Origin: an uncultured Eubacteriales bacterium
GTDB lineage: Bacteria > Bacillota_A > Clostridia > Oscillospirales > CAG-272
DNA: 7,382 nt
Direction of reading: 5' to 3'
Assembly (NCBI GenBank): GCA_900555345.1
Contig: USKS01000066.1
Span: 1-7,382 of the forward strand
The notes beneath the pieces were generated by a model, which saw only the letters and a list, made by a program, of their open reading frames with translations, was not told the DNA's origin and ran no database searches. The translations under genes and the position numbers were made by a program. Positions 12-7,114 of the stretch are shown piece after piece; the stretch's first letter is position 1, and each line of letters begins with the position of its first letter.

Positions 12-490
12 ACCTTACAAAGCTTTGCGAGAGCGATCAGTTTCTCGGCGTTCTTACAAGATACGGAGCCGACCGCGATAAGGTGCAGGAAGTTATCGAC
101 AGCGTAGGCGTCGGCGGAGAGGACGCGGTACGCCGCGTGTCCGATATAGTCGCGGCACCCCTTGCGACGACTGTCGCAAACATAATAGCTTTTGCGGCGG
201 TGTTCATCGCAGCTTTTGCGGTCCTGCGCCTTTTGACATTTATTATAGGTCTTATATTCAAAATGCCCGTGCTCAGAGGGCTCGACAGAACTTTGGGACT
301 TGTTTTCGGATGTATTGAAGCTCTGTTCTTTGTGTGGATATTCGCCATGATAGCGGCAGTTACCGTAACGGCTCTCAGCTGCGCATATCCGGCAACGTTT
401 TCCGCCGATATACTTGAAAAGAGCATACTTCTGAAATTCTTTGCAAAATATAACGCCGTCGGAGCTGTCTCCCAGGCGTTGGGATTCTGA
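12..490 (+). CDS. CvpA family membrane protein, 5'-partial
   Basis: This is the C-terminal part of a small integral membrane protein of the CvpA (colicin V production) family. In E. coli the founder is linked to colicin V export, but the exact function in Clostridia is not established. The readable frame starts with the codon at 14 and ends at TGA 488-490. Counting from the GTG at 83, residues about 31-57 and 71-99 are two hydrophobic helices. They are joined by the family-like segment FKMPVLRGLDRTLGLVFG, a short basic loop followed by a glycine-rich helix start. CvpA proteins are usually about 160-220 residues with around four helices, so the first helices are missing here. The loss is most simply explained by the contig edge at base 12 and not by mutation. 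GTG 83 is an unlikely true start: it has no convincing ribosome binding site and coding sequence continues upstream of it. The gene precedes pgsA by 18 bases, in the same likely operon. Confidence 0.8.
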
Positions 491-508: not shown

Positions 509-1081
509 ATGAAAGCCAAGTACATTCCTAACATTTTGTCCGTTCTGCGCCTTCTCATGTCATTTGCTTTTGCGGCAGTGTTCATCTGGGCGCCCGATGA
601 AAAGCTTTATATAGCGGTCATCATCTTTGTTGTCGCGGGCATAACCGATGTCGTGGACGGCATCCTTGCGAGACGCAACAACTGGATAACCGAGGCGGGC
701 AAAATACTGGATCCGCTTGCGGATAAGCTGATGCAGTGCACGGCGCTCATCTGCGTTGTGGCGAGAAAGCTTGTGCCGTGGTGGATACTTATACCCATAA
801 TTCTGAAAGAGCTTATCATGGGCGTCGGCTCCGTGGTGTTCTATAAAATGTTCAAACAGATAGGCGTTGCCAAAAACTACGGCAAGGCTTATACTGTCAT
901 ATTCTACGTTGTGATAGCCGCAATAATAGTATTCTACAAACCGTGGTTTCAGTATAACGAGTGGGCGATATACGCGCTGTGCATAATCACGGCCGCAGCC
1001 GGCTTTGTTGCCATAGTTCTTTATTACAAAAGCTATCTCAAAGGCAAACTGGGCAAGAAAAACAGAAAGGTTGAAAACTGA
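509..1081 (+). CDS. pgsA: CDP-diacylglycerol--glycerol-3-phosphate 3-phosphatidyltransferase
   Basis: This integral membrane enzyme condenses CDP-diacylglycerol with sn-glycerol 3-phosphate to give phosphatidylglycerol phosphate and CMP, the committed step to phosphatidylglycerol and cardiolipin. The product has 190 residues, normal for PgsA. The complete CDP-alcohol phosphotransferase signature is visible: D47, D50, G51, A54, R55, G64, D68 and D72, matching DxxDGxxAR(x8)GxxxDxxxD. These aspartates bind the metals and the CDP group. Hydrophobic segments lie at about 8-28, 33-47, 77-110, 127-144 and 152-174, and the C-terminus is a basic tail. The start ATG at 509 has a good ribosome binding site, GAAGGGG at 497-503, five bases upstream. 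Its TGA (1079-1081) shares one base with the ATG of the next gene, so translation of the two is probably coupled. I see all key residues and no defect. Confidence 0.95.
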   Translation: MKAKYIPNILSVLRLLMSFAFAAVFIWAPDEKLYIAVIIFVVAGITDVVDGILARRNNWITEAGKILDPLADKLMQCTALICVVARKLVPWWILIPIILKELIMGVGSVVFYKMFKQIGVAKNYGKAYTVIFYVVIAAIIVFYKPWFQYNEWAIYALCIITAAAGFVAIVLYYKSYLKGKLGKKNRKVEN

Positions 1082-3414
1082 TGGTAATGTGTGCAAGATG
1101 CCACAAGCGCATGGCGGTCGTTTTTATAACGAGAGTGGAAAACGGCGAGTCCAAGCAGGAGGGCATTTGTATAAAGTGCGCCAAGGAGCTGGGCATAAAG
1201 CCCGTTGACGATATAATCGCCAAAATGGGGCTCACCGACGAGGACGTTGACCGTATGTCCGACGAAATGCAGGACATTATGGACAGCGTTGAAAACGGAG
1301 AGGATCCGCTGGGGCTTTCCGGTCTTGTCTCATCCGACGACGGCATCGGAGATGAATCCGATGCCCCCGCCGTCGATCTGGCGCGAATAATGCGGGAGGG
1401 CATGGCAAATGCCGAATCCGGCGGCACGAAAAACGATAAGAAGAGCGACAAAGCCGACAAGGACGCGTCCGCTCACCGCAAGAAAGAAAAGAAATTTCTC
1501 TCGGCATACTGCCAGAATATAAACGAAAAGGCGGAGATGGGCAAGCTCGACAACATAGTCGGACGCGAGCGCGAGCTTGACCGCATAATCCAGATACTTT
1601 GCCGCAGGCAGAAAAACAATCCCTGCCTTATAGGTGAACCCGGAGTGGGCAAAACGGCTATCGCCGAGGCGCTGGCGCAGAAGATCGTGCGCGGCGACGT
1701 ACCTTATAAACTGAAAAACAAGGTGCTTTACCTTGTGGATCTTACGGCTCTCGTTGCGGGCACGCAGTTCAGAGGACAGTTCGAGTCGAGAGTTCTCGGG
1801 CTTCTCAACGAAGTAAAGGCTGCCGGCAATATAATCCTTGTCATCGACGAGGTCCACAATATCGTCGGTGCAGGAGACGCCGAGGGATCCATGAACGCCG
1901 CAAATATCATGAAGCCCGCGCTTTCCCGCGGGGAAATACAGGTGATAGGCGCCACCACCCTTGCGGAGTACCGCAAGTATATCGAAAAGGATTCCGCCCT
2001 TGAGCGGCGTTTCCAGCCGGTAACGGTAAACGAACCCGGCATCGACGAAAGCGAAAAGGTGCTTCGCGGCATAAAGCACTATTATGAAGAGTTCCACGGT
2101 ATCAGAATTCCCGACAGGGTGCTCCGCTGCGCCGTAACGCTCAGCGAGCGGTATATAACCGACAGATACCTTCCCGATAAGGCAATAGACCTTATAGACG
2201 AGGCGGCATCCCACATTGCGCTTTCAAGCCCCGAGATAAACGAGCGCTGTGAGCTTGCCGACAGGCTGAAAGAGGTAAGCACAAAGCGCGCCGAGCTTGA
2301 GGCAAAGGCGGAAAGCGGCGAGGCTGCGGATGACGCAACGTATAAAACTCTTGCGGATCTTAAAGTCGAAGAGCTTCAGCTGAAAAGCCGTATCGGTGAG
2401 CTTAAAAAGCTCTGCGCCGATGTGGAGATGAAAGAAAGCGACCTTGCGGACGTTATAGAGATATGGACGGGCATCCCCGCATCCACCATAACAGAGGACG
2501 AATATACACGTCTTGAGGGTCTGGGAGATCGCATAAAAAGCCGCATAGTAGGGCAGGATGAAGCGGTGGACGCGGTCGTCAGAGCCGTCAGACGCTCCCG
2601 CACGGGCGTTTCCCCCAAGCGCAAACCGGTTTCGTTTATATTTGCCGGTCCTACCGGAGTCGGCAAGACCGAGCTTGTAAAGGTTTTGGCAAACGATCTG
2701 TTCTCGTCTCCCGAGACGCTCATACGCCTTGACATGAGCGAGTTTATGGATAAATTTTCCGTTTCCCGCATTGTGGGAGCGCCTCCCGGATACGTGGGAT
2801 ACGACGACGGCGGTCAGCTGACGGAGAAGATACGCCGCAGACCCTATTCCGTGGTGCTTTTCGACGAGATAGAAAAAGCGCATCCCGATGTTATGAACAT
2901 CCTTCTTCAGATACTTGACGACGGACGCATAACGGACGCTCACGGCAAGACCGTAAGCTTTGAGAATACAATACTTGTAATGACGACTAACGCCGGCAGC
3001 AGCGGCGGCAGCGCTCCCGCGGGCTTCGGCGCCGCCGAGGGTAGCCTCAGCAGAGAAAAGACCATGAAAGCGCTGGGCGAGTTCCTGCGTCCCGAGTTTA
3101 TCAACCGCGTGGATGAGATAATCACATTCCGCGCTCTTGATAAAAAGGATTTCGCGCGAATCGCGAAGATCATGCTTTCCGATCTGAAAGAGGCGCTTTC
3201 CGCGCGCTTTATAAGCCTTACCTATACGGACGCGGCAGCGGAGCGCATTGCCGACGAATCGTATTCCGCAAAGTTCGGCGCGAGAAATATGCGCCGCTTT
3301 ATACAGACTGCAATTGAGGATAAGATTGCCGAAAAAATCGTGGCAGCCCACGGAAGTGTCAGCGCGGTCACCGTCGATGCCGACGGCAGCGGGCTGATCA
3401 TCGCCGCAATATAA
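1081..3414 (+). CDS. Zinc-finger Clp/Hsp100 AAA+ unfoldase (ClpE/ClpC-like)
   Basis: Hsp100 unfoldases of this class form hexamers that pull proteins through a central pore, usually into the ClpP protease. The 777 residues begin with a four-cysteine zinc finger (C4, C7, C30, C33), as in ClpE and McsA, in place of the double Clp-N repeat of ClpC. A charged, low-complexity linker follows at about 82-138. The first AAA+ domain (about 155-375) has Walker A GEPGVGKT 185-192, Walker B D256/E257, pore loop F230-R231-G232 and arginine fingers R309/R310. A short charged helical middle domain spans 385-450. The second AAA+ domain (about 485-700) has Walker A GPTGVGKT 523-530, pore loop GYVG 570-573, Walker B D595/E596, sensor-1 N637, arginine finger R676 and sensor-2 GAR 733-735. 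A loop with AGF at 647-649 sits where ClpP-binding ATPases carry an I/L/V-G-F tripeptide. ATG 1081 is preferred over ATG 1087 because GAAAGG (1065-1070) is better spaced. Both ATPase sites look intact. No ctsR, mcsB or clpP is visible here. Confidence 0.92.
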
Positions 3415-3448: not shown

Positions 3449-6169
3449 ATGGAACAGCATACAAGAAACTGGCACCGGATGACAAATGCGGAGCTTGAAA
3501 AGGTTCTGCACAGCGATACTGCCACCGGTCTGTCGGAGGCTGAGGCCGCGCGGCGGCTCAGACGGAAAAAGAATACCGTTTGGCGTCTGAAAGGCACAAG
3601 CGTTAAAAAATACGCGGCAAAAAGCTTTATGGAATTTACCACCGTATTGCTCATCGCCGCAGTTATCACGGGCGCCGTATTTGACGGCGCACTGGGAGCT
3701 GTCCTTGTCTGCATAATGCTTTTTGCATGCAGAGCGGCAAGGATAGGCGCGTACATATGGGCGCAGCGAAAGCTTGAGAAAAATGCTGCCGAGGCGCTGC
3801 CGCGGGCGCGAGTCGTTCGGGGCGGAAGCGTCAGAAGCATCCCCGCCGACATGATAGCCCCGGGAGATGTTATAATTCTGGATACGGGAGATACCGTTCC
3901 GTGTGATATACGCCTTACGGCGGCGGATAACCTGCTTGTGTCGGAGGGAACGGTCACCGATAACGACGGCATAGTCTCCAAAAATTCCGAGCCTGTTGCC
4001 ATAGGCGGCGAAGTGCCCGTGACCATGCGCTCGAATATGCTTTACGCAACAAGTGCCGTTATCAGCGGCTTTGCCGTCGGCATCGCCGTGGCGACCGGCA
4101 GGGATACGCTTGTCTGCGCGCGCGAGGGCGAAGTGGTGCTTTCGGGCGGCGACGATGTTCCCGTGCTTGCAAAGCTTGCGGACTGGAGCCGCATATGCAG
4201 CCTGAGCCTTACGGCGGCATCCCTTGTAATAACGGCGGCAGGCGTTGCCGTCGGACATAAAACTCTTGCCGAGGCATTTGTTCCCGCCGTCGCGATGGCG
4301 GCTGCCTGCCTCAGCGAATATCTCGGCGCTGTGGGCGCCGTGGCATGGGCTGCGGCTCTCAGACCGGACAGCGACGGCGCGGTCATGCGAAGCGCTGCCG
4401 CGGCTGAATGCGCCGCAAACGCGGACATACTCGTTCTGCGCTCTCCCGCAGTCATGAAAAGCGGGAAAAACACGCTTCATTCTTATTATAAAGATTCAAA
4501 GCTTACTATGATAGGCACAAAGGGCGCGGGCATTCCGTACAGGCTGCTTTCCCTTGCGTGCTACTGCACGGGCATGTCGCCGCGCGGCAGTATTGCCAAA
4601 GGCTCGTTCGGCAAAAAGACGAGACACACGGGCGTGCTCGCATACAGCGTCGTGCGCGCTTTGTGGGATGAAAACGGCGACGCGAAATACGATCCGAACT
4701 ATACTGTGGTATCCCACGTTGCCGCGGGGGAGGAAAACTCCGGCGGACTTGACAACGTTCTGCTCGCGCGGGCAAACGATATGTTCTTTGCCGCGTCCGG
4801 CAGCGTCGCGAAAATTCTGCCCCTTTGCAAAACACAGCGTATAGGCAACGAAATAGTTCCTCTTGACGCCGACGCGAGAAGACGTATATCCGAATTCGCC
4901 GCGGGGCTTATGCAGCGCGGAGTTACGGTATGCGCCGTGGGCTTCAGACGCTCGCATTACAATAATCTCAGACGTATGTCAGTTCTGCAAAGCGATCTTT
5001 GCTTTGAGGGATTCTTCGCCGTGTCGCAGAGGCTCGGCGAGGGAGCGCTTGAAAGACTTTCCGACTTCAGAAAAAGCGGCGGCAGGGTCGTGCTGTTCTC
5101 AAATGCCGACGCTGCGGAGGAAGAGCTTTACTTCTGCCGCGCGGAGGGCATATACTCCGTAAACGATACATACATCGGCTTCGATGACAGCAAAAAAACC
5201 AACGTCCTGCCTCTTGAGGCGGGCAGCCTTACCGTAGTATGCACGGGCGGCGGCGCCGACGGCATACGCGAGCGGCTGAGATACGTTAAAATGTGCAGCG
5301 AGGCTGGTAACTGCGCCTACATAGGCTTCGGGGTTGAAGATATGTGGAGCATGCAGGCGGCGGATGTTTCGTTTGCCGTACTGTCCCCGGGCAGTGACGG
5401 CGTACCGCAGGCTCTGCGCCAGGCGGCGGACGGTATCGTATCGTCGCAGGACGGCTTTGCCGCGTGTATGCGCCTTACGGATAAGTGCAGACTTGCCCTT
5501 GTCAATATAAGGCATATCCTCAAATATCTCATAGTCTCCCATGCGGCAAGGCTTATTATAATGCTGCTCACAGCCCTTACGGGCATGATGCTGCTGTCCC
5601 CGCCGCAGCTTGTATTCTGGGGAGTTGTGATCGATCTTCTCGCTGCGCTGGCAATTGCCTTTGTGCCCTATGACCGCACAAGAAAAGGCGGCAGGGAATA
5701 TGTCGGCACCGTGGGTGCCGTGCCGGATACTGCGGCGGAAGTGCTGCTTCCCACGCTATACGGTGCGCTTACAGCCGCGCTCAGCTTTGCGGTTCCGTTT
5801 ATATCCCGCCTTATATGCTCAGCCGCGTCGGTGCCGCTTGAAATGAGCAGCGGCGGCATGCTTTCGTGCATATATATTTCATGTATACTCGCAATGCCCG
5901 TCGCGGCGGCGGAATTTGCGGGCGGCAACGGTCTGTTCGGCAAAAACAGCACATACGGCAAAGCGTTTATCGCGCCGTTTGCGGCAGTCGTTACAGGCGC
6001 CGCGGCAGCGCTCACCCCACTGTCGGCTTCCGCCTCCGGCACAGCATTTCCCGGCTGGATATCTCTTGCGGTCTGCTTTTTGCCGGTGCTCGTTCTTATC
6101 GGAGTAATGTCCGTGGCGCGCGCACTGAAAAACCGAAGTATATCGCAGAAAAGCGGTTCAATACTATAA
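3449..6169 (+). CDS. P2-type cation ATPase-like membrane protein lacking the catalytic motifs (probable pseudoenzyme)
   Basis: The 906 residues follow the layout of a P2-type cation pump. An N-terminal domain (about 7-57, with NWHRMTNAELEKVL and GLSEAEAARRL) resembles Cation_ATPase_N. Helices lie at about 60-78 and 81-103, an actuator-like domain at 115-225, helices at 248-268 and 274-304, nucleotide-binding and HAD-like cytoplasmic domains at about 305-680, and six C-terminal helices at about 686-889. Active P-type ATPases pump ions by transient phosphorylation of the aspartate in DKTGTLT. Here that block aligns as SPAVMKSGKN (332-341), with proline 333 (codon 4445-4447) replacing the aspartate. 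TGES is TDND (170-173), PEGL is SEYL (289-292), KGAPE is SGSVA (450-454), TGD is SNA (551-553), and GDGVND is GFGVED (626-631). It therefore should not be able to form the phosphoenzyme. The frame is uninterrupted, codon use matches its neighbours, and it starts 34 bases after the Clp gene with a ribosome binding site (GGCGGAG, 3433-3439). Its function is unknown. A regulatory, scaffold or receptor role is inference. Pump activity is unlikely. Confidence 0.85.
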   Translation: MEQHTRNWHRMTNAELEKVLHSDTATGLSEAEAARRLRRKKNTVWRLKGTSVKKYAAKSFMEFTTVLLIAAVITGAVFDGALGAVLVCIMLFACRAARIGAYIWAQRKLEKNAAEALPRARVVRGGSVRSIPADMIAPGDVIILDTGDTVPCDIRLTAADNLLVSEGTVTDNDGIVSKNSEPVAIGGEVPVTMRSNMLYATSAVISGFAVGIAVATGRDTLVCAREGEVVLSGGDDVPVLAKLADWSRICSLSLTAASLVITAAGVAVGHKTLAEAFVPAVAMAAACLSEYLGAVGAVAWAAALRPDSDGAVMRSAAAAECAANADILVLRSPAVMKSGKNTLHSYYKDSKLTMIGTKGAGIPYRLLSLACYCTGMSPRGSIAKGSFGKKTRHTGVLAYSVVRALWDENGDAKYDPNYTVVSHVAAGEENSGGLDNVLLARANDMFFAASGSVAKILPLCKTQRIGNEIVPLDADARRRISEFAAGLMQRGVTVCAVGFRRSHYNNLRRMSVLQSDLCFEGFFAVSQRLGEGALERLSDFRKSGGRVVLFSNADAAEEELYFCRAEGIYSVNDTYIGFDDSKKTNVLPLEAGSLTVVCTGGGADGIRERLRYVKMCSEAGNCAYIGFGVEDMWSMQAADVSFAVLSPGSDGVPQALRQAADGIVSSQDGFAACMRLTDKCRLALVNIRHILKYLIVSHAARLIIMLLTALTGMMLLSPPQLVFWGVVIDLLAALAIAFVPYDRTRKGGREYVGTVGAVPDTAAEVLLPTLYGALTAALSFAVPFISRLICSAASVPLEMSSGGMLSCIYISCILAMPVAAAEFAGGNGLFGKNSTYGKAFIAPFAAVVTGAAAALTPLSASASGTAFPGWISLAVCFLPVLVLIGVMSVARALKNRSISQKSGSIL

Positions 6170-6274: not shown

Positions 6275-7114
6275 ATGTCCGAAAACAACGAATGCACACA
6301 TGATTGCTCCTCCTGCGGAGCAGACTGCCCCTCCAAGGGCGGCGGTGCAATTGAAAAGGAAAAGCTCAATCCCGCGTCCGAGGTGCGCCATGTAATTGGC
6401 GTGGTGTCAGGCAAGGGAGGCGTGGGCAAATCCATCGTGACCTCCATGCTCGCGGTCGAAATGCGCCGCAGAGATTTCGGCGTTGCTGTGCTTGACGCGG
6501 ATATTACGGGTCCCTCCGCACCGAAGGCGTTCGGCGCGGGCGCGGACGCAGGCGTTGAGGTAAGAGACGAAGTGATGCTTCCCTATATGACCAAAACGGG
6601 AATACAGCTTATGTCCGTAAACCTTCTTCTCGGCGACGAGACAAGCCCCGTAGTATGGCGCGGACCGGTCATTGCGGGCGCCGTAAAGCAGTTCTGGACG
6701 GATGTTATCTGGAACGACGTAGACTATATGTTTGTCGATATGCCTCCCGGAACGGGCGACGTTCCGCTGACGGTGTTCCAGTCTCTGCCCCTTGACGGCA
6801 TCATAATAGTAACAACGCCGCAGGACCTTGTTTCCATGATAGTGGAAAAAGCGGTGAACATGGCAAAGCTTATGAACATTCCGATCCTGGGACTTGTGGA
6901 GAATATGTCATATGCCGTATGTCCCGACTGCGGAAAGCATATTGACATATTCGGAAAAAGCCGCCTTGAGGAGACCGCCGCAAAATACGGCATAGCGCCG
7001 CTTGCCCGTATTCCTCTCGATCCCAGACTCACGGCGCTTATCGATAAGGGCGCGATCGAGCTTATGGACAACGACTACGTAAAGTCGGCGGCAGACGCCA
7101 TAGAGGGACTGTAA
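6275..7114 (+). CDS. mrp: Mrp/NBP35-type iron-sulfur cluster carrier ATPase
   Basis: Mrp/ApbC proteins are cytoplasmic P-loop ATPases of the MinD/NBP35 group that carry Fe-S clusters and hand them to target proteins. From ATG 6275 the product has 279 residues. The deviant Walker A SGKGGVGKS lies at 45-53, followed by the LDADITGPS segment at 73-81, the switch-like VDMPPGTGD at 154-162, and ENMSYAVCPDCGK at 209-221, whose C216/C219 pair holds a bridging 4Fe-4S cluster between two subunits. The N-terminus carries four further cysteines (C7, C11, C14, C18), recalling the N-terminal cluster of NBP35. The frame stays open to a GTG at 6266, but ATG 6275 is preferred because AGGTGA at 6264-6269 is then a ribosome binding site five bases upstream, and it gives the usual MSEN-type start. 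The gene lies 105 bases after the P-type ATPase-like gene, with no clear promoter of its own. All core motifs are intact. Confidence 0.93.
   Translation: MSENNECTHDCSSCGADCPSKGGGAIEKEKLNPASEVRHVIGVVSGKGGVGKSIVTSMLAVEMRRRDFGVAVLDADITGPSAPKAFGAGADAGVEVRDEVMLPYMTKTGIQLMSVNLLLGDETSPVVWRGPVIAGAVKQFWTDVIWNDVDYMFVDMPPGTGDVPLTVFQSLPLDGIIIVTTPQDLVSMIVEKAVNMAKLMNIPILGLVENMSYAVCPDCGKHIDIFGKSRLEETAAKYGIAPLARIPLDPRLTALIDKGAIELMDNDYVKSAADAIEGL

Follow-up and report, generated by a model that had tools for sequence, protein, structure and literature searches.

A P2-type ATPase-like protein lacking catalytic motifs, encoded behind a ClpE-like gene, is almost certainly a member of an old pseudoenzyme family

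The genes considered here all lie on the forward strand of the window, that is, the whole stretch of DNA analysed (7,382 nucleotides). A CvpA-like membrane protein (83..490) is followed by a PgsA-like CDP-alcohol phosphatidyltransferase (509..1081) and by a ClpE-like AAA+ unfoldase with an N-terminal cysteine zinc ribbon (1081..3414), the conserved upstream neighbour of the gene that is the subject of this work. The latter (3449..6169) encodes a pseudo P2-type ATPase of 906 amino acids, and an Mrp/NUBPL Fe-S carrier ATPase with a likely ATG start (6275..7114, in an open reading frame from 6266) lies downstream.

P-type ATPases are defined by a phosphorylated Asp. The window protein is a homologue of the P2-type (P2A) enzymes, its sequence and the fold of its A, P, N, and ten-helix M domains all matching, with the actuator (A) core at residues 115-234 (3791..4150) and the nucleotide-binding (N) domain at approximately residues 337-522 (4457..5014). 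This agrees with the initial annotation, which had described a protein of P-type ATPase shape with altered catalytic motifs. For the motif and ion-site positions, the SERCA residue numbers and the roles ascribed to them are those we assume to apply. Alignment with intact relatives places the phosphorylatable Asp of DKTGT at R331 (4439..4441), which excludes P333, previously proposed as the former Asp. The other assignments stand as first given: TDND 170-173 (3956..3967) at the TGES dephosphorylation motif, with N172 for the catalytic Glu; SGSVA 450-454 at KGAPE; the replaced DPPR block near 526-529; SNA 551-553 (5099..5107) at TGD; and GFGVED 626-631 (5324..5341) at GDGVND, where D631 (SERCA D707) is retained. 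The phosphorylatable Asp and the TGES Glu expected of an active P-type ATPase are thus both missing, as are intact TGD and GDGVND motifs of the HAD-like P domain. With the SERCA-type equivalog TIGR01116 the protein scores 98.8 bits, below the curated cut-off of 703.4 bits.

The same losses are found throughout the relatives. A protein search returned P0001-P0050 at no less than 456 bits, the next match scoring 132 bits (among the best 120 of 139 matches), and a second search with a wide alignment gave no further full-length members. The partial sequences P0006 and P0041 were dropped before all counts, leaving 48 full-length database members, which were combined with the genome loci L002, L010, and L014-L082 into a set of 119 sequences; the intact pumps L006 and L008, the partial loci L003, L004, L007, and L009, and the loci from L083 onward are outside this set. 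The phosphorylation Asp is present in 0 of the 48 members of this first clade, and neither DKTGT nor an intact TGD at its site occurs in any of the 119 sequences. An Asp occupies the aligned DKTGT column, with the motif itself absent, in two of them (L043 and L069), the TGES Glu is present by position in six (L043, L048, L056, L061, L063, and L073), and D703 is present in 6/119. When five features are scored (D351, K352, E183, D703, and G626 with D627), 79/119 sequences have none and the maximum is two; the same catalytic sites are complete in all 14 intact comparison pumps. The dropped P0006 is a database protein of 658 aa that matches 58% of the query at 99% identity and carries two extra Pfam domains, PF17762 and PF23552, which we take to be ParB-related; it may be a chimeric contig or a frameshift fusion.

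We have also considered that the proteins could be active by other chemistry, through a different phosphorylated residue or driven by nucleotide without phosphorylation. Such a possibility could build on the D707 position, which is Asp in 81/119 and Glu in 29/119 sequences, and on R500, which is invariant in the 48 full-length members and which we aligned by eye with what we take to be SERCA R560. However, the phosphorylation site has no conserved Asp, the conservation of the P domain is mostly gone, and some members have the N domain deleted, which makes this alternative very improbable.

The dN/dS of the pump-like gene (NG86) is 0.085-0.275 in seven pairs of relatives; with dS of 1.0-2.0, near saturation, these values are rough, and the window copy's own branch lies outside these pairs. 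Clp gives 0.014-0.122 in the same seven pairs and Mrp 0.045-0.048 in three, showing that the pump-like gene evolves faster than its neighbours. The initial annotation had read the protein as a pseudoenzyme kept by selection and had named intact motifs in homologues and a dN/dS near 1 as signs to the contrary; neither was found, in support of its reading. High divergence and degenerate motifs might also be expected of a decaying pseudogene or an assembly artefact. Such an origin is extremely improbable, since open frames of about 900 aa occur in many genomes, dN/dS is far below 1, and the synteny is conserved at an identity of 22-30%; given the dN/dS and the presence in many genomes, we reject a decaying pseudogene or a sequencing error. 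The open frames are those of a large old clade and not of a single gene. An enzyme fold without its catalytic residues, held under selection, is what characterizes a pseudoenzyme, and, judged by sequence, this is what we find. The window protein therefore almost certainly belongs to an old pseudoenzyme family of P2-type ATPase origin.

The distribution of the remaining conservation was evaluated at a matched overall identity of 25-40%, with 250 pseudo pairs against 60 pairs from the 14 intact sequences. Under these conditions, the two P-domain parts are 31% and 30% identical in the pseudo pairs versus 77% and 54% in the intact ones. The A core is the best conserved part of the pseudo pairs, with 42% versus 48%, while M5-M6 shows 35% versus 46%, M3-M4 35% versus 39%, and the N-terminal part with M1-M2 no drop. 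When dN/dS is calculated for each domain separately, the lowest value is that of the actuator in three of five pairs (0.024, 0.043, and 0.069) but not in the other two. In a tree of 57 rows, a single branch separates 35 pseudo from 22 intact sequences with a support of 100/100 and in 100% of 200 bootstrap trees. The intact pumps again stand apart in a quick tree of 75 rows, which has long branches and where the loss of the N domain takes three changes. As the tree is unrooted, a single catalytic loss is likely but not proven.

In the membrane part, the SERCA-type Ca2+ site II (E309, N796, and D800) is incomplete, the Glu and the Asp being kept and the Asn replaced by Gly. The M4 Glu, E290 in the window protein (4316..4318; SERCA E309), is kept in 113/119 sequences, and the M6 Asp, D729 (SERCA D800), in 117/119, the two exceptions (L069 and L078) ending short of the M6 region. 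The N796 position, G725 at the start of the same M6 segment (5621..5635), is Gly in 116/119 sequences and Asn in 14/14 intact pumps, and the E771 position in M5, R701 (5549..5551), is Arg in 113/119, compared to 11 Glu and 3 Ala in the intact pumps. The intramembrane Arg together with the Glu and the Asp (R701, E290, and D729) could replace the cation, either locking the helices into a single state or rendering them responsive to pH or ions. Before M5, at residues 668-669 (5450-5455), the window protein has Asp-Gly where intact pumps have Asp-Asn (D in 14/14, N in 11/14), most relatives having Gly-Gly (108 and 113 of 119, respectively).

These residues would be compatible with a passive sensor or channel, in which the actuator reports on a membrane part that either senses pH, a cation, or voltage or lets an ion leak through. 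A parallel comes from P3A pumps, where, according to a review, an Arg in TM5 sets the proton affinity of a TM6 residue (PMC10654040). However, the M4 Glu, the M5 Arg, and the M6 Asp are lost in a branch of four proteins outside the family sample (L168-L171), such that the charge-triad idea is not valid for all members, and the membrane part of the forms without an N domain has diverged strongly. We thus consider a passive sensor or channel distinctly unlikely. In L168-L171 the catalytic motifs are gone, and, with the three charged residues, even the ion site.

The N domain is absent in 6 of 23 P-ATPase-like open reading frames found behind ClpE in genomes without a match above threshold, and 11 database proteins, 683-688 aa long, lack it too. 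Other variants were seen as well. One open reading frame (L107:610-2772) retains the N domain and stops after M6, without M7-M10, and L112 and L126 have, at the pseudo-pump position, open reading frames that measure 1090 and 1160 aa between stop codons, which suggests that additional sequence may have been acquired by some members. Genome G002 has two loci with clp and a pseudo-pump (L002 and L010) on separate contigs, the pseudo-pumps being 70% identical, which reflects either a duplication or a mixed assembly.

As to the spread of the family, 67 of 196 sampled genomes of the GTDB family of genome G001 match a first profile at E<=1e-90, and 90/196 match a wider profile at E<=1e-142; the loci from all 90 were inspected, and DKTGT is present in none. 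A further 40 genomes were taken that have a ClpE-like gene and no match at E<=1e-142. In 23 of these, a P-ATPase-like open reading frame (62-885 bits, three cut by a contig end) lies directly behind ClpE, again with DKTGT in none, and the remaining 17 ClpE loci have mrp (4), another gene (12), or a contig end (one) behind. At L103, L104, L106, and L135, mrp comes directly after clp, as if the pseudo-pump gene between them had been lost. Among the genomes of the same order that gave an order-level match, we picked 30 that had not entered the family sample; 24 of them have a ClpE-like gene (E<=1e-230), six of these 24 with a P-ATPase-like open reading frame behind it. Four of the six were extended, to 916-1062 aa stop to stop, and all are motif-less. 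Motif-less ClpE-anchored loci outside the family sample refute a clade limited to one GTDB family, and such forms also overturn an earlier view of order-level matches below 472 bits as intact pumps. The genomes of these loci likely lie outside the family, with some uncertainty because a larger group was the source of the family sample. Among 295 genomes of the order, 25 of them in the family sample, scores above 480 bits occur in 10/25 versus 0/270 of the others. At the class level, 24/391 genomes are above threshold, and the 16 loci read there (from 15 of the 23 genomes besides G001) all have DKTGT and GDGVND, 15 with TGES. The score threshold is thus imperfect, intact pumps reaching up to 515 bits at the class level, and for this reason only motif-checked loci were counted. 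The relatives are labelled, as deposited, Clostridia, Clostridiales, Ruminococcus sp., and Ruminococcaceae MAGs.

A ClpE-like gene lies immediately upstream on the same strand in 85/87 loci, namely those with at least 400 nt upstream among the 89 chosen by the pump-like gene (L014-L102), L094 and L098 (2/87) having no Clp upstream. The gap between the two genes has a median of 24 nt and a maximum of 482 nt over 108 loci with Clp, including 23 chosen by ClpE. Near the N terminus, 47 of 48 full Clp open reading frames have a CxxC...CxxC pair, which we take to fit ClpE. No intact pump directly behind clpE, as the ancestral state would have it, was found among the loci read, about 500 residues being visible in the order-level loci. 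Speaking against a link to ClpE, the ClpE-like gene is present without a pump-like gene in 17/40 ClpE loci taken from genomes with no match at threshold (a contig end cuts one of the 17), as do the two loci that have no Clp upstream.

Two alternatives would assign the protein another partner. It could be a scaffold for PgsA, CvpA, Mrp, or a membrane client encoded elsewhere, ClpE being a mere neighbour on the transcript; cvpA does precede clp in 36/49 loci, and mrp lies at most 600 nt downstream in 21/94. As such neighbours are less constant than Clp, we regard this as unlikely. The other is a regulatory subunit, i.e., a dead copy that pairs with and modulates an active Ca2+/Mg2+-type P2 pump of the same cell. 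In this direction, 36 of 40 gene-bearing genomes also match a P2-type ATPase at E<=1e-70 (by score, motifs aside), and the intact L006 and L008 come from G003 and G002, both of which have pseudo copies. Yet four of the 40 genomes, whose assemblies may be incomplete, have no such match, and the stable neighbour is clpE, such that a regulatory subunit appears quite improbable. The idea that G001 has no other P2 pump was overturned by one match.

The initial annotation had also suggested a role as a sensor, scaffold, or regulator at the membrane, which is a matter of inference. Motif loss, selection, synteny, and N-domain loss are established at the level of sequence comparison. From a gene order that is stricter with clpE than with any other neighbour, and from the retention of actuator and membrane parts, we infer an ATP-independent, membrane-embedded scaffold or adaptor that would act with ClpE; the lower conservation of M3-M4 and M5-M6 relative to intact pairs speaks against it. 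In the proposed scenario, an ion pump sited behind a ClpE-like gene would have lost its phosphorylation and ATP chemistry, probably once, and would have retained its actuator, its membrane helices, and an ion site in rewritten form, some lines afterwards shedding the whole nucleotide-binding domain. The protein could bring the ClpE unfoldase to the membrane or present membrane-protein clients to it. The partnership with ClpE is a candidate drawn from gene order, and operon neighbours can be functionally unrelated. Taken as a whole, the statement of an old P2-type pseudoenzyme family that works with ClpE as such a scaffold or adaptor is put forward tentatively, at somewhat below an even chance. 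Dead pumps of calcium-pump shape have been kept for long by related gut bacteria, nearly always after an unfoldase gene, and the pump shape has thus probably been reused otherwise.

A further-reaching possibility, a new class of membrane proteins in which former pumps are ATP-independent partners of AAA+ unfoldases and hand membrane clients to ClpE, we consider improbable. If true, living genomes would display a series from a dead full-length pump through a rewritten ion site to the loss of the ATP-binding domain, and a fold known for moving ions (in P5A, transmembrane helices) would deliver membrane-protein clients to ClpE.

Compared to the P2A ATPases LMCA1 (lmo0841), SPCA1, and SERCA, the family has in common the whole fold, the domain order, the actuator, the M4 Glu, and the M6 Asp. 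It differs from them in lacking DKTGT and TGD, in having lost the TGES Glu and GDGVND in nearly all members, in the replacement of N796 by Gly and E771 by Arg in most, and in the missing N domain of some. The P5A-ATPase Spf1, a transmembrane helix dislocase, is a P-type ATPase tied to membrane-protein quality control; unlike the family, Spf1 is catalytically active and eukaryotic. For Plasmodium guanylyl cyclase beta (PfGC-beta), a degenerate P4-ATPase-like domain is described (PMC6592433), and for alveolate cyclases another report states that activity of the P-type part had not been demonstrated (PMC5746546). PfGC-beta is eukaryotic, cyclase-fused, and P4-like, whereas the window protein is bacterial, separate, P2-like, and adjoins clpE. 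A 2014 survey gives DKTGT in 99.77% of P-type ATPases with no new class, and point changes of the motif in 22/9,634 sequences, these being single mutations and some possibly sequencing errors (PMC3896382); such point-changed proteins are likewise without an intact DKTGT. We found no P-type ATPase pseudoenzyme family in the open-licence literature searched; older or subscription work may exist.

A large, old, and selected family without the catalytic motifs, and in part without the ATP-binding domain, shows that a pump scaffold can be retained to serve a different purpose. Its members are natural experiments on the parts of the scaffold that matter without ATP, and, as the gene order with clpE is fixed, one partner is open to a direct test. 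Databases name some members (P0013 and P0022) 'cation-transporting P-type ATPase', which would mislead genome-based predictions of transport.
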